The position numbers and the translations under genes are program-made. From a virus: a stretch of 64,000 bases of DNA. The stretch covers positions 62,001 to 126,000 of IMG/VR virus record IMGVR_UViG_3300028802_000007. One strand, 5' to 3'. Positions 6,771 through 46,505 of this stretch are shown one piece after another. Below the pieces are notes generated by a model, which worked only from the letters and a program-made list of their open reading frames with translations, ran no database searches and was not told the DNA's origin. The stretch's first letter is position 1, and each line of letters begins with the position of its first letter.

Positions 6771-7514
6771 CTACTGGGCGAGGATCGCCTTGTTTGACCG
6801 CCATCTAGGGTAACCCACGGGTGGGTTGTCGGCGGCGGGCGGAACGACTTGGAACGACGCCGCCACCACGAGTGTGCTGGTGATGGAAGTCGTGATAGAC
6901 AGGGTCATGATGGCGGTGTGGCCGCCGGAGTTGCTGTTGGAGACCAGCGTCGCGTGGGAGTAGTGATCGACCGACGACACACCGTTGTTGGACGCCCGTA
7001 GCGTCGGCGTGCCGTGGTTCGATGTCCAAGTGTCGTTGGACGCTCTGGCAACGCTGCGCCTGTCGGCACCGACCATCGCCACCAGTTCTCCCGACAGAAG
7101 GTCAGCGTTAGCGAAGGTAGTAGTGTTGGGACTCGAAGTAGAACTACCCTGCGCGGTCTGGTCTAGCGGTATGTTTCCACCGCCAGAGAACTCGCCACCC
7201 GACCACTCTTCGAGATGCGCCGCCGTGATGAAACCGGCGAGCCCCGTGATGGTCGGAGCCGCATCTGACCCAGCGGCGATCTTGAAGAAGATCGAGCACG
7301 CGCAAGTGCCCCCGTCCGAGATGTTGACTGTGGACAGCCAACCCGAAGGTGCCGCGTATGACAGGGCCGTGACGCCACCAGCGGTGCCGCTCACGAAGCA
7401 CAACAGCAGGTTGTTCGCCGTTCGGCTCGATCCTGCGCCATACGCTGGCGTGACGTTCCCGCCAGACGTGCTGACCGACGCCGTCCCGGCTGATCCGACG
7501 AGCGCGTAGGCCAT
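6771..7514 (-). CDS. beta-sandwich virion protein related to a fibre domain
   Basis: 247 residues from an ATG at 7514; the frame stays open upstream, but GGTGG precedes this ATG and the sequence before it is non-protein-like. Gly/Ser/Thr-rich with a conserved pattern NNLLLCFV...PSGWLS...HLEEWSGG. The same arrangement (NALIAWW...VNVSEWSG) occurs in the fibre at about residues 1035-1245, so the two share a fold. Probably a receptor-binding or decoration protein. Confidence 0.75.
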   Translation of the reverse strand: MAYALVGSAGTASVSTSGGNVTPAYGAGSSRTANNLLLCFVSGTAGGVTALSYAAPSGWLSTVNISDGGTCACSIFFKIAAGSDAAPTITGLAGFITAAHLEEWSGGEFSGGGNIPLDQTAQGSSTSSPNTTTFANADLLSGELVAMVGADRRSVARASNDTWTSNHGTPTLRASNNGVSSVDHYSHATLVSNSNSGGHTAIMTLSITTSITSTLVVAASFQVVPPAADNPPVGYPRWRSNKAILAQ

Positions 7515-7533: not shown

Positions 7534-7986
7534 TCAGCCCAGCATACGCGAGGCGATGGCGTCCACTTCACCCTCTTCGCCGGTCATCACCATGCCGTTG
7601 GGCATGAGCCACAGGCGGGTGACGTGGCGGCCATGCTTCTTGCCGACGACGTGGGCGGTGACCGTCGGTCCGATGGTCGAGCCGATGATGCCGACGTGGT
7701 GACGGTGGTAGAAGAACTGGTCACCCTCCGACGTCGTCATGCACAGCATCGGCTGACCCGACTCCTTGCTCATCAGGAACCAGATGCCAGGCCGGCGGAA
7801 GGTGTCGCGGTTGCCCTCGATCCAACCGGGCGTGTCGAGATCGATACCGATGTTGCCGCCCACCTCGTCGTCAGGCTGGAAGACGAGGAAGACCGGAAGG
7901 TCGCCGACCCAGCCGCTCTCCGGGTGGTCGGCAGGGACGGGGACGGTGCTGACCTCGACCGCCGTGCCCTCGAAGATCTCTACCAT
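7534..7986 (-). CDS. conserved-looking phage protein, unknown
   Basis: 150 residues starting inside the last codons of the upstream glycosyltransferase-like gene. It contains a basic HRHHVG stretch and KKHGRHVTRLWL near the C-terminus and ends with a Glu-rich segment. No signal peptide or membrane helix. Placement between a glycosyltransferase and virion proteins suggests a role in virion assembly or modification, but no function can be assigned. Confidence 0.75.
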   Translation of the reverse strand: MVEIFEGTAVEVSTVPVPADHPESGWVGDLPVFLVFQPDDEVGGNIGIDLDTPGWIEGNRDTFRRPGIWFLMSKESGQPMLCMTTSEGDQFFYHRHHVGIIGSTIGPTVTAHVVGKKHGRHVTRLWLMPNGMVMTGEEGEVDAIASRMLG

Positions 7987-36254: not shown

Positions 36255-37053
36255 AGCCAAGGTCATGCCCACCCTCGCCGCCAAGTTGGCGGAGATCATG
36301 GGCGAGATGGCCCACGTCAAGAAGGAGGGCTTCAACAAGGCCCAGAACTACCGCTTCGTCCGCGAGACCGACGTGGCTGAGAAGGCGTCGGAGCTCCTCG
36401 CGGCGCGGCACATCTGGGTCCACCAGTCGGTCATCAGCGAGGAGATGGTGCCGCTCTACACGACCGCGTCTGGCTCCCAGATGTGGCTGACCAAGTTGCA
36501 GATCGCCTTCAAGTTCATCGACGGTGACACCAAGGAGGAGACCGAGCCGCAGACCTTCAGCGGCCACGGTGCCGACACCGGCGACAAGGGTGTCTACAAG
36601 GCGATGACCGGTGCCGAGAAGTACTTCCTGATGAAGAGCTTCCTCGTCTCGACCGGCGACGATCCTGAGGCCGACGAGAAGGTGGACAAGGCCGCCGCTG
36701 CCGCCGGATCGACTGGAGCGCCTCGCGTGGTGCGCGGCAATCAGGCTGGCGTCCAGCGTGGCGGCAAGAGCACCAACGCGACCGCCGCTCAGGTCAACGA
36801 GGTCGCCCGCCTCTACAGGGATCTGAACCTGACGCCGGAGTCGGTCCTGCCCATCATCCAGGCCACCCTTGGCAGCATCCCGGGCGAGGGCCAGACGCTG
36901 CGTGACTTCCTTGGTGCCCAGAAGGGCGACGACGTCGCCAAGCTCATCAGCACCCTCATGGAGTTCAAGCCCGTCGAGGCCGACGCGGTCGAGCCGGGTG
37001 ATGTCGCCGTCGAGGGCGAAGACGACCTTCCCCCGGCGATGGCCGTCGTCTAG
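36241..37053 (+). CDS. ERF-family single-strand annealing protein
   Basis: 270 residues from ATG 36241, overlapping the nuclease. HVKKEGFNKAQNYRFVRETD is the ERF signature, followed by SGSQMWLTKLQIAFKFIDG and GVYKAMTGAEKYFLMKSFLV. The C-terminus is a low-complexity linker and an acidic tail, common in phage annealases. It pairs complementary single strands during recombination-dependent replication and repair. Confidence 0.88.
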   Translation: MATSEAKVMPTLAAKLAEIMGEMAHVKKEGFNKAQNYRFVRETDVAEKASELLAARHIWVHQSVISEEMVPLYTTASGSQMWLTKLQIAFKFIDGDTKEETEPQTFSGHGADTGDKGVYKAMTGAEKYFLMKSFLVSTGDDPEADEKVDKAAAAAGSTGAPRVVRGNQAGVQRGGKSTNATAAQVNEVARLYRDLNLTPESVLPIIQATLGSIPGEGQTLRDFLGAQKGDDVAKLISTLMEFKPVEADAVEPGDVAVEGEDDLPPAMAVV

Positions 37054-43686: not shown

Positions 43687-43847
43687 CCACCACCGTCGCC
43701 ACTCCAGACCACGATCCGCGACCTATCCGTATGCTCGTCCTCGAGGCCGCCATCCGGCGGGCCATCGAGATGCTGGACGGTGAGGGAGATGTCGAGGTAC
43801 GCGAGCTTCTCGAGGAGGCGCTCCGTGAGGGTAGTCATCGCGGGTAG
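43683..43847 (+). CDS. 54-residue helical protein
   Basis: ATGA overlap with the methyltransferase. Helical, acidic (AAIRRAIEMLDGEGDVEVRE, LLEEALREG). Overlaps the next gene's GTG start. Unknown. Confidence 0.65.
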   Translation: MTTTVATPDHDPRPIRMLVLEAAIRRAIEMLDGEGDVEVRELLEEALREGSHRG

Positions 43848-44286
43848 CCGTGCCCTGCCACGCGGCCAGGCTCCGCGCCTGCTGGCTCGCTTCCTCGCCA
43901 AGTTCGATGACGGTGACAGCGTCCTGATCCGCACGCCCAAGATGGGTGAGCCCGGCCCCTTCGAGCGCGACGTCATCAAGCTGTGCGAGCTCTTCCAAGT
44001 CGAGGTCGAGACGTTCACGCCGGAGCCCACGCCGCAGACGCCGGGCCGTGGCTCCGTCTTCCTCCGCGACATCGAGATGGTTGACAAGGCGGACCTCGTC
44101 CTCCTGTTCTTCACGCCGACGGAGGCTGTCGAGGGCTACTCAGGCACGGCCCACATGATGGAGAAGGCGCTCGATGCCGCACGTCCGGTCTACGCCTACA
44201 CCGTGTCGGAGGCCGGCGAGGTGAACCGGCTGGGCGAGTACGACCCTGACGATCTGTTCAGCCACAAAGTTCCGTCAGTACCTTGA
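43825..44286 (+). CDS. SLOG/Rossmann-fold nucleotide-binding-like protein
   Basis: 153 residues from GTG at 43825. VRVVIAGSRALPRGQAP is the N-terminal strand-loop of SLOG-type (DprA/TIR-related) folds, then ADLVLLFFTPTEAVEGYSG and AHMMEKALDAARPVYAY match the acidic-site region of nucleoside 2-deoxyribosyltransferase-like proteins. It could process nucleotides. It ends just at the promoter of the RNA array. Confidence 0.55.
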   Translation: MRVVIAGSRALPRGQAPRLLARFLAKFDDGDSVLIRTPKMGEPGPFERDVIKLCELFQVEVETFTPEPTPQTPGRGSVFLRDIEMVDKADLVLLFFTPTEAVEGYSGTAHMMEKALDAARPVYAYTVSEAGEVNRLGEYDPDDLFSHKVPSVP

Positions 44287-44312
44287 CATCATGGTGTCAT
44301 GCCACTTATTGT
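44283..44312 (+). promoter_or_regulatory. promoter of the Y-RNA array
   Basis: TTGACA (44283-44288), 18-bp spacer, TATTGT (44307-44312); transcription would begin about 44319, the first base of module 1. The -35 overlaps the stop codon of the previous gene. Confidence 0.6.
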
Positions 44313-44318
44313 TCGCGG

Positions 44319-44389
44319 TCTGCGGTGCGTAGCCACGGGGTTACTTCTCTGGAAAGTAATACCTCGAACGGCGATCTTGTTCTCGCAGA
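44319..44389 (+). ncRNA. Y RNA-like module 1
   Basis: Terminal stem TCTGC/GCAGA, conserved GGTGCGTAG after the 5' strand and TTGTTCTC before the 3' strand. The inner part is one hairpin (GGTTACTT / AAGTAATACC). About 71 nt, the size of a plain Y RNA. No open reading frame. Confidence 0.75.
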
Positions 44390-44399
44390 TAACTGAATA

Positions 44400-44540
44400 G
44401 GTGACGGTGCGTAGGCCGGGGATACTTCGTTAATCTTTGGGTCGTGGGTTCGAGTCCCACCCCGGGCCCGCAAGGGCCTGGGTAGCTCAGTTGGTAGAGC
44501 AAAAGACAAGAGACACCTCGTCCACTCAGTCCTCGTCGCC
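44400..44540 (+). ncRNA. Y RNA-like module 2 (YrlA-type, permuted tRNA domain)
   Basis: Terminal stem GGTGAC/GTCGCC with GGTGCGTAG and CCTC. The inner 73 nt (44434-44506) order the parts of a tRNA circularly: anticodon-stem strand TCTTT, T-arm GTGGGTTCGAGTCCCAC (44444-44460), 3' acceptor CCCGGGCCC, GCAA loop, 5' acceptor GGGCCTGGG, D-arm GCTCAGTTGGTAGAGC (44485-44500), then AAAGA pairing with TCTTT. Matches the known tRNA-like domain of bacterial YrlA RNAs. Confidence 0.85.
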
Positions 44541-44549
44541 ACTAGACGT

Positions 44550-44669
44550 GCTGATGGTGCGTATGGGTAGGGGCTACTTCGTTGCTTGAAGTCTCAGTTC
44601 GACTCTGACGGAGAGCTTGCTCTCTGTGGCAGTGGTGCCAACACCTCAACCCGACCTGTTCTCATCGGC
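44550..44669 (+). ncRNA. Y RNA-like module 3 (degenerate tRNA-like)
   Basis: Terminal stem GCTGAT/ATCGGC (one G-U pair) with GGTGCGTAT and TGTTCTC. Inside: T-arm TCAGTTCGACTCTGA (44594-44608), hairpin CGGAGAG-CTTG-CTCTCTG (44609-44626) and D-arm-like GGCAGTGGTGCC (44628-44639), the same permuted order as module 2 with different sequence. Confidence 0.75.
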
Positions 44670-44681
44670 GCTACATCAACG

Positions 44682-44790
44682 TCAGCGGTGCGTAGACCGG
44701 GGTTCCTTCGTTGGAGAGAGCCCACCGGCTTGCTGGTGGGTGGGGGTTCGAGTCCCCCAAGTAAAACCTTGATCGCCTAGTCCTCGCTGA
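44682..44790 (+). ncRNA. Y RNA-like module 4 (T-arm type)
   Basis: Terminal stem TCAGC/GCTGA with GGTGCGTAG and AGTCCTC. Inside: hairpin CCCACCGG-CTTG-CTGGTGGG (44721-44740), then a perfect T-arm GGGGGTTCGAGTCCCCC (44742-44758). The order differs from modules 2 and 3. Confidence 0.75.
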
Positions 44791-44800
44791 TACATCCGTT

Positions 44801-44919
44801 CCAGTGGTGCGTAGAAGAGGGGTACTTCGAGTGCCAGGCCCCGCAAGGGGTCAGCCGGACACTCAACCGGCAACCCGCCGCAAGGCGGTTCGTTCCCTTC
44901 CTCGACTTGTTCTCACTGG
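44801..44919 (+). ncRNA. Y RNA-like module 5 (GNRA-hairpin type)
   Basis: Terminal stem CCAGT/ACTGG with GGTGCGTAG and TTGTTCTC. Inside are a long GAGTG...CACTC stem with CCCC-GCAA-GGGG, and CCGCC-GCAA-GGCGG. No T-loop. Ends 20 nt before the Ro60 start codon. Confidence 0.75.
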
Positions 44920-44939
44920 TACACCGACAGGAGCTTCGA

Positions 44940-46505
44940 ATGGTCAAGCTCGCCGCCCGCACGAAGCGGGCTCCCAAGGCACCGGTCACGTCCACCAAGG
45001 GCCGGAAGCCGGACACCCTCACCTACAACGCAGGCGCAGGGTTCTCCCGTGAAGCCAAGTCGGAGCTGTTCCTCCTGTCCGTGACCAACATGGTCAGCGA
45101 GGACACCTTCTACGAGCGCGGCAAGAACCGTGACAAGCGGTTCGTGGACCTCATCCGTCAGGTCGCCCTCGAAGATCCCGACTGGGTCGCCCGGCTTGTG
45201 CCCTACCTCCGCGACACGATGAACATGCGATCCGCATCCATCGTGATGGCGGCTGAGCTGGTGCATGCCAAGCTGACCCGTCCCGTCGGTCCCGGCACGA
45301 TCAAGAACCGCGACATCATTGCGTCCGCAATCAAGCGGGCGGATGAGCCGGCGGAGATGATCGGCTACTGGATGTCCGAGTGGGGCAAGGCCCTGCCGCA
45401 GCCGGTGAAGCGCGGCATCGCTGACGCGGTCGTGCGCGTGTACAACGAGCGGTCCCTGATCAAGTACGACGGTGGCGACAAGGCCATCCGCTTCGGTGAT
45501 GTCATCGACCTCACCCACCCGGAGGCCAAGGCCCCGTGGCAGTCGGCTCTGTTCAAGTACGCCATCGATGACCGCCACAAGCGGGACATCCCGATCTTGG
45601 AGCGTGCTGAACTCGGCCTGGTCTGGGCCAACGAGGGTGCGATGTCGCTCGACACCGACGCCTTCCGCGCTGCCTTCACGCCTGAGTTCGTGGCGGCGGC
45701 TGGCCTGACGTGGGAGCAGGCGTCGTCCAAGTACGGCAAGCTCGACGCGAAGTTCTGGGAGGCGATGATCCCCTCGATGGGCATCTTCGCCATCGTGCGG
45801 AACATCCGCAACTTCGAGGACGCCGAGATCAGCGAGGCCGCCGCCGACCTGGTCCGGGCCAAGCTCAAGGACGAGGAGACCATCCGCAAGTCGCGGATGT
45901 TCCCGCTCCGGTTCATGGCCGCGTACACCGCGACCAAGAGCCTGACGTTCGCCCGCGAGCTCGAGGCCGCGATCGACCTCGCCACCTCCAACGTGCCTGC
46001 CCTGACGGGCAAGACGCTGGTGATGGTGGACATCTCCGGCTCCATGGACGCGGCGCTGTCCGCCAAGTCGGACGTCAAGCGGCTTGCCGTGGCGTCCATC
46101 TTCGGTGCGGCTCTCGCGATCCGGGCGGAGAAGGCCGACCTCGTGGCGTTCTCGGACACCACGGCGGTCATCCCGGTCCGCAAGACGGACTCGGTGCTGC
46201 GGACGGTGGCTGCCCTCGTGCAGTCCCTGCCGCACGGTGGCACCCAGACGTGGCAGGCGGTGCAGCGCACCTACACCGACCACGACCGGATTGTCATCGT
46301 GACCGACGAGCAGGCCAACGCAGGCTACGCGGGGACGACCCTCCCTGAGGACGCCCGCGTCTACACCTTCAACGTGGCTGGCTACCGTGCCGGTCACGGC
46401 CCGTCGGGCAAGAAGGGGTGGTACACGTTCGGTGGGCTGACGGATGCGGGCTTCACCGCCATCGAGCTCCTCGAGCGAGGGAACGACCAGACCTGGCCGT
46501 TCTGA
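44940..46505 (+). CDS. rsr: Ro60/Rsr RNA-binding protein (TROVE + vWA)
   Basis: 521 residues from ATG 44940 (CAGGAG upstream; a TTG further upstream is not used because it lies inside module 5). VTNMVSEDTFYERGKNRDKRF and DTMNMRSASIVMAAELVHAK begin the TROVE HEAT-repeat ring (about residues 20-350). MVDISGSMDAAL is the MIDAS metal site (DxSxS, about residue 362), and IVIVTDEQAN follows in the vWA domain. Ro60 binds Y RNAs and misfolded or end-bearing RNAs. Adjacent to five Y-like modules. Confidence 0.93.
   Translation: MVKLAARTKRAPKAPVTSTKGRKPDTLTYNAGAGFSREAKSELFLLSVTNMVSEDTFYERGKNRDKRFVDLIRQVALEDPDWVARLVPYLRDTMNMRSASIVMAAELVHAKLTRPVGPGTIKNRDIIASAIKRADEPAEMIGYWMSEWGKALPQPVKRGIADAVVRVYNERSLIKYDGGDKAIRFGDVIDLTHPEAKAPWQSALFKYAIDDRHKRDIPILERAELGLVWANEGAMSLDTDAFRAAFTPEFVAAAGLTWEQASSKYGKLDAKFWEAMIPSMGIFAIVRNIRNFEDAEISEAAADLVRAKLKDEETIRKSRMFPLRFMAAYTATKSLTFARELEAAIDLATSNVPALTGKTLVMVDISGSMDAALSAKSDVKRLAVASIFGAALAIRAEKADLVAFSDTTAVIPVRKTDSVLRTVAALVQSLPHGGTQTWQAVQRTYTDHDRIVIVTDEQANAGYAGTTLPEDARVYTFNVAGYRAGHGPSGKKGWYTFGGLTDAGFTAIELLERGNDQTWPF

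Follow-up and report, generated by a model that had tools for sequence, protein, structure and literature searches.

The question raised by this locus is which kind of RNA is encoded by a short viral sequence that carries the arms of a tRNA in permuted order next to a Ro60 gene. The window, that is, the whole stretch of DNA analysed, comprised 64,000 nt of the IMG/VR viral record IMGVR_UViG_3300028802_000007 (positions 62,001-126,000). The record is 130,935 bases long and contains a second Ro60 locus, the sister locus L003. It was observed that the record was made up of two collinear units, each about 75 kb long, arranged head to tail and sharing roughly 75-90% identity along much of their length. 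The record may be a chimeric assembly from two related phages; thus the second Ro60 gene may come from another phage. A search of the record for RtcB found no such gene, so the locus does not represent a Salmonella-type RNA-repair operon.

A tRNA core in permuted order

The tRNA-like domain, which was identified by sequence, a structural scan, and folding, was located at positions 44434-44506 of the plus strand, on which the promoter-like site, all five modules, and the Ro60 gene described below also lie. Its elements followed one another in the order anticodon-stem 3' strand, variable loop, T arm, acceptor hairpin, U8-A9, D arm, A26, and anticodon-stem 5' strand. The scan, folding, and comparison placed TCTTT (44434-44438) at anticodon-stem position 39-43, where its partner was AAAGA (44502-44506), the 5' strand of the same stem. 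By comparison, GGGTC (44439-44443) corresponded to a 5-nt variable loop (44-48), the C48 of which matched G15 of the D loop (Levitt pair). The T arm GTGGG-TTCGAGT-CCCAC (44444-44460; scan and folding) was followed by an acceptor-like hairpin of 9 bp, CCCGGGCCC-GCAA-GGGCCTGGG (44461-44482; scan, folding, and comparison). Just before the D arm GCTC-AGTTGGTA-GAGC (44485-44500; scan and folding), the sequence TA (44483-44484) represented T8-A9 (U8-A9), and the A at 44501 represented A26. Read from the sequence, the domain was a complete tRNA core in permuted order. Neither an anticodon loop nor a CCA end was present in 44434-44506; the anticodon-stem strands ran into a Y RNA stem, and the acceptor end was closed by a loop. 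When the isolated 73-nt piece was folded, the MFE and the centroid structures were both identical to this arrangement (-34.8 kcal/mol, z -3.0). An earlier note had given the order as T arm, acceptor, GCAA loop, and D arm, which proved exact to the base, and its reading was borne out: a permuted tRNA-like domain of the YrlA/Y RNA type that is open on the anticodon side and closed off at the acceptor end.

As a random control, the loose scan (T arm, hairpin, TA, and D arm) was applied to both strands of 40 random 64-kb sequences and returned 5 matches, a rate of about 0.1 per window for a scan that required neither the 5/5 anticodon-stem helix nor the position before Ro60. One weak additional match was observed in the window at 36983, which was non-canonical and lay inside a coding sequence. 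The argument against a chance origin that we take as decisive comes from the comparative evidence described below.

Two familiar kinds of RNA were considered and rejected. An ordinary tRNA did not agree with the missing anticodon loop and CCA end, and ARAGORN predicted 0 tRNAs and tmRNAs in the window. A tmRNA is likewise a tRNA mimic with a T arm, but the match to the Rfam tmRNA T arm reached 11 bits only, and the window domain had no tag reading frame, no CCA end, and an acceptor closed by a loop.

The module array upstream of Ro60

The domain belonged to an array of five tandem Y-RNA-like modules (44318-44919), which lay between one promoter-like site and the Ro60 gene. The site, TTGACA-N18-TATTGT (44283-44312), was located 5' of module 1 by a motif search and was the sole one found within 43800-45000; a similar site (TTGACA...TATCGT) was found at the equivalent place in L003. 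The modules had in common the core GGTGCGTA...GGGGnTACTTC, and each had a separate basal stem. In this layout, a module's own stem strand with GGTGCG(TA) was followed by GGGG(N)TACTTC or GGGGTTCCTTC, and then by YCTC with the complementary stem strand. The basal helices of all five modules comprised at least 6 bp, differed in sequence, and would be formed by the two ends of each RNA.

Module 1 (44318-44390; basal stem TCTGCG/CGCAGA, core GGTGCGTAG...GGGGTTACTTC) contained a short hairpin and no tRNA-like domain, according to sequence and folding. Module 2 (44400-44540; basal stem GGTGACG/CGTCGCC, core GGTGCGTAG...GGGGATACTTC) carried the full permuted tRNA-like domain, as indicated by sequence, Rfam, and folding. 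Module 3 (44550-44669; basal stem GCTGATG/CATCGGC) was a degenerate tRNA mimic by sequence and folding, in which the T arm TCAG-TTCGACT-CTGA, recognized by sequence (44594-44608), preceded a hairpin (44609-44626) and a D-like hairpin (44627-44640). Module 4 (44682-44790; sequence and folding) was without a D arm and presented a 9-bp hairpin (44720-44741) followed by the T-arm-like GGGGG-TTCGAGT-CCCCC (44742-44758); its basal stem TCAGCG/CGCTGA is known by sequence only and was absent from the MFE structure of a piece cut at 44786. Sequence and folding of module 5 (44801-44919; basal stem CCAGTG/CACTGG) revealed several hairpins without a tRNA-like motif.

The next gene downstream started after a gap of 20 bases and encoded a Ro60/Rsr homologue of 521 aa (44940-46505), as indicated by domain search and protein comparison. 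The Pfam results revealed a TROVE domain (E 1.4e-14) and a vWA domain with a conserved DxSxS (vWA_Ro60, E 1.1e-6). The gene 5' of the array (43780-44286) had no Pfam match and is a possible operon partner. A homologue of this gene also preceded the array in the sister unit (L003 about 6932-7390). In Streptomyces phage Kela, an annotated RNA ligase gene (L025:1687-2439) separated Ro60 from the Y RNA modules, an arrangement reminiscent of the association between Ro60 and RNA repair genes.

The Ro60 protein of L003 was 82% identical to that of the window, and L003 contained four modules, two of which carried full permuted tRNA domains. The TCTTT/AAAGA helix was identical in L003, the T and D arms were retained, their changes being paired (GTGGG/CCCAC to GCGGG/CCCGC), and a wholly different acceptor hairpin was present, longer and with a TTCG loop. 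The L003 module homologous to module 3 of the window (7671-7806) had a canonical domain, whereas that of the window is degenerate. The layout of module 4, a hairpin and then a T-arm-like hairpin, was the same in both loci.

Comparative evidence from Ro60 loci

Relatives of Ro60 were sampled from viral contigs, actinobacterial genomes, and named phages, giving about 175 loci. Within 1.5 kb upstream of Ro60, the loose structural scan detected a permuted domain at 56 of the 80 loci from viral contigs, 66 of the 80 from bacteria, and 9 of the 12 from phages; the minus-strand control of the same loci gave 2 matches in 175. We also performed an anchored search, in which the loop letters were fixed and pairing of the T stem, acceptor, and anticodon stem was not demanded. 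This search yielded 182 distinct domains from 136 of the about 175 loci, again within 1.5 kb upstream of Ro60. Acceptor pairs 2-6 were paired in 93-95% of these domains, compared with 45-50% when the strands were shuffled, and up to six pair types were observed. The anticodon-stem helix was paired 5/5 at the exact tRNA geometry, which required a 5-nt variable loop and one linker base (A in 51 domains, G in 7), in 58 of the 182 domains versus 5.8 after shuffling, and more than 30 different helices were represented. The geometry of TCTTT/AAAGA, which the earlier note had assigned to the anticodon-stem position, was thus conserved. Bases 15 and 48 were free in the search, and both states of the Levitt pair occurred widely. 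The 15-48 pair was G-C in 104 and A-U in 69 domains (173/182, versus about 90 and at most 111 after shuffling), and 85/86 domains kept it versus 44 shuffled when near duplicates were removed; since the sequences counted are related, the shuffles overstate the significance of the covariation. The covariation of the acceptor hairpin, the anticodon-stem helix, and the Levitt pair indicated that the tRNA-like fold is real and selected, and the retention of the Levitt pair suggested that elbow and core most likely fold the way they do in tRNA. Selection thus appears to keep the secondary structure plus a tertiary contact of the tRNA core in the Ro60-linked domains.

The GNRA loop of the acceptor hairpin was not conserved: the caps varied, GCAA occurred in 5 of the 182 domains, and UUCG and others were commoner, so that the GNRA cap described previously is one among many. 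Near-consensus D and T loops without a CCA end in a phage had also been considered notable; this assessment was not supported, as the combination is the rule beside Ro60, in phages and actinobacteria alike. In the sample, the mean number of modules per locus was 3.4 for phages, 2.5 for viral contigs (range 0-7), and 1.9 for bacterial loci. Module arrays are common in phages, and the five modules of the window are on the high side, yet within the range of viral contigs. Tandem multi-module arrays with the core GGTTACTTC were observed in the window (44318-44919) and at L019, L020, and L029.

In five public phages, the annotated tRNA genes directly before Ro60 were segments of Y RNA modules, comprising the 5' strand and the T arm. 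The mis-annotated genes were tRNA-Arg (L024:2141-2212 and L021:2251-2325), tRNA-Ser (L026:2256-2329), tRNA-Pro (L027:2245-2335), and tRNA-Thr (L029:2211-2278); all five contained the TACTTC core, and a D arm lay downstream of each. ARAGORN drew a linear "tRNA" of this kind (5' strand and T arm) from 39 of the 182 domains. After the 5' strands were swapped between loci, 29-33 calls were kept, and composition shuffles gave 0-7. The survival of the calls in the swaps suggested that the Y RNA 5' strand common to the loci, rather than pairing specific to one locus, accounts for most of them, and a linear tRNA as a real alternative fold was rejected on this basis. These results mean that phage tRNA annotations adjoining Ro60 genes can be Y RNAs.

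Y RNA class and putative function

Previous studies have reported that YrlA consists of a stem formed from its two ends and a domain resembling the tRNA D, T, and acceptor arms (PMC8394870; PMC4726728; PMC7790460); the YrlA sources given in PMC8394870 include RNA 20:1715 (2014) and Wang et al. 2018 (PDB 6CU1). In the present analysis, sequence, scan, folding, and covariation indicated that the domain of module 2 resembles these three tRNA arms. A local search with the Rfam YrlA model (RF02553) matched 44415-44525 at 40.8 bits (E 1.6e-7), which did not reach the curated cut-off of 69, and the Rfam search at the gathering threshold returned nothing. The domains of ten other Ro60 loci, where found, scored 36-56 bits against the same model, all below 69; thus the RF02553 cut-off seems too strict for this branch. 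We file module 2 in the Y RNA class and not as a thresholded member of RF02553. Like YrlA-type Y RNAs, the window locus lies beside a Ro60/Rsr gene, with a basal stem formed from the predicted RNA ends and permuted T, acceptor, and D arms, but it has five tandem modules located 5' of the gene, and its basal-stem core (GGTGCGTA...TACTTC) is unlike the Rfam YrlA consensus. The Y RNAs of actinobacteria and their phages (Streptomyces BRock, Kela, and Quantum; Gordonia VanLee and Neville) share with it the TACTTC core, the permuted domain, and the position upstream of Ro60, but the module number and the share of tRNA domains vary among them, and the 9-bp GCAA acceptor is particular to the window locus. 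The tRNA-like domain of bacterial Y RNAs was reportedly described in phages too by Chen et al. in 2014. In summary, the domain is a described Y RNA (YrlA-type) tRNA mimic; it exemplifies well the Y RNAs already known from bacteria and phages and is not a new kind of RNA.

Salmonella YrlA has been reported as a substrate of DusA and TruB, and a Y RNA links Rsr to PNPase in the RYPER particle (PMC8394870); by analogy, the recruitment of tRNA-binding enzymes to Ro60 is plausible. Ro60 binding and the modifications D and pseudouridine have likewise been reported for other Y RNAs (PMC8394870). For PNPase tethering, Deinococcus and its cellular Rsr are the only case studied. We propose with considerable confidence that the domain is the effector domain of a phage-encoded Y RNA of bacterial type. 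As in published Y RNAs, transcription of the array would be followed by trimming into individual Y RNAs, Ro60 would bind the basal stem of each module, and the tRNA-like body would dock on a host protein that recognizes tRNA elbows or structured RNA. The most likely role, judged from these analogies, would be to link phage Ro60 with a host protein that binds tRNA elbows or acts in RNA decay. PNPase would be the most likely partner, and the resulting Ro60-Y RNA-PNPase (RYPER-like) particle would serve RNA decay or quality control during infection. The T and D loops would be targets of tRNA-modifying enzymes such as TruB and Dus, with incidental or functional effect. It is conceivable, if rather unlikely, that the array supplies specialized Y RNAs from one transcript, so that during infection a single phage Ro60 could tether several host proteins of different kinds; module 2 would then be the full mimic, module 3 the degenerate one, module 4 a T-arm-only form with swapped order, and modules 1 and 5 the non-tRNA forms.

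We consider it improbable that the elbow mimic held by Ro60 acts as a decoy that protects phage or host tRNAs by competing for nucleases of the host or for defence effectors that target tRNA. The tRNA core, including 15-48, is strongly conserved with the anticodon removed, phages carry several module copies, and an anticodon-nuclease decoy has been suggested for Salmonella YrlA, but no defence target is known, and the Salmonella authors left the matter open (PMC7790460). Moreover, the domain was equally conserved beside chromosomal actinobacterial Ro60 genes (66/80 loci), indicating that it is not phage-specific.

A genuine permuted tRNA gene, the transcript of which would circularize at the anticodon side and yield a functional tRNA after cleavage in the acceptor loop, would explain why the 3' half precedes the 5' half and why the full base set of a tRNA core is present. 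This is very improbable: in place of an anticodon loop, the strands enter a Y RNA stem, with about 30 nt of module at either side, a 4-nt loop closes the acceptor hairpin, which has neither CCA nor leader/trailer, the acceptor caps vary freely among the 182 domains, and the domains associate with Ro60 and not with tRNA clusters. It is hardly credible that a deletion fused the T arm of one tRNA gene with the D arm of the next into functionless debris, although the arms are near consensus, tRNA clusters are frequent in phages, and the loose scan does catch one real tRNA-tRNA junction (L022 6253): the covariation of the acceptor strands, and likewise of the anticodon strands, refutes this origin for the class, the layout is identical at well over a hundred Ro60 loci, and ARAGORN found no tRNA genes in the examined stretches of the record.

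Read as the effector domain of a phage Y RNA, the locus shows that selection maintains a tRNA core, including one of its tertiary contacts, in a molecule other than a tRNA, among phages and their hosts alike. About 180 natural variants are available for testing the binding partners of the mimic.
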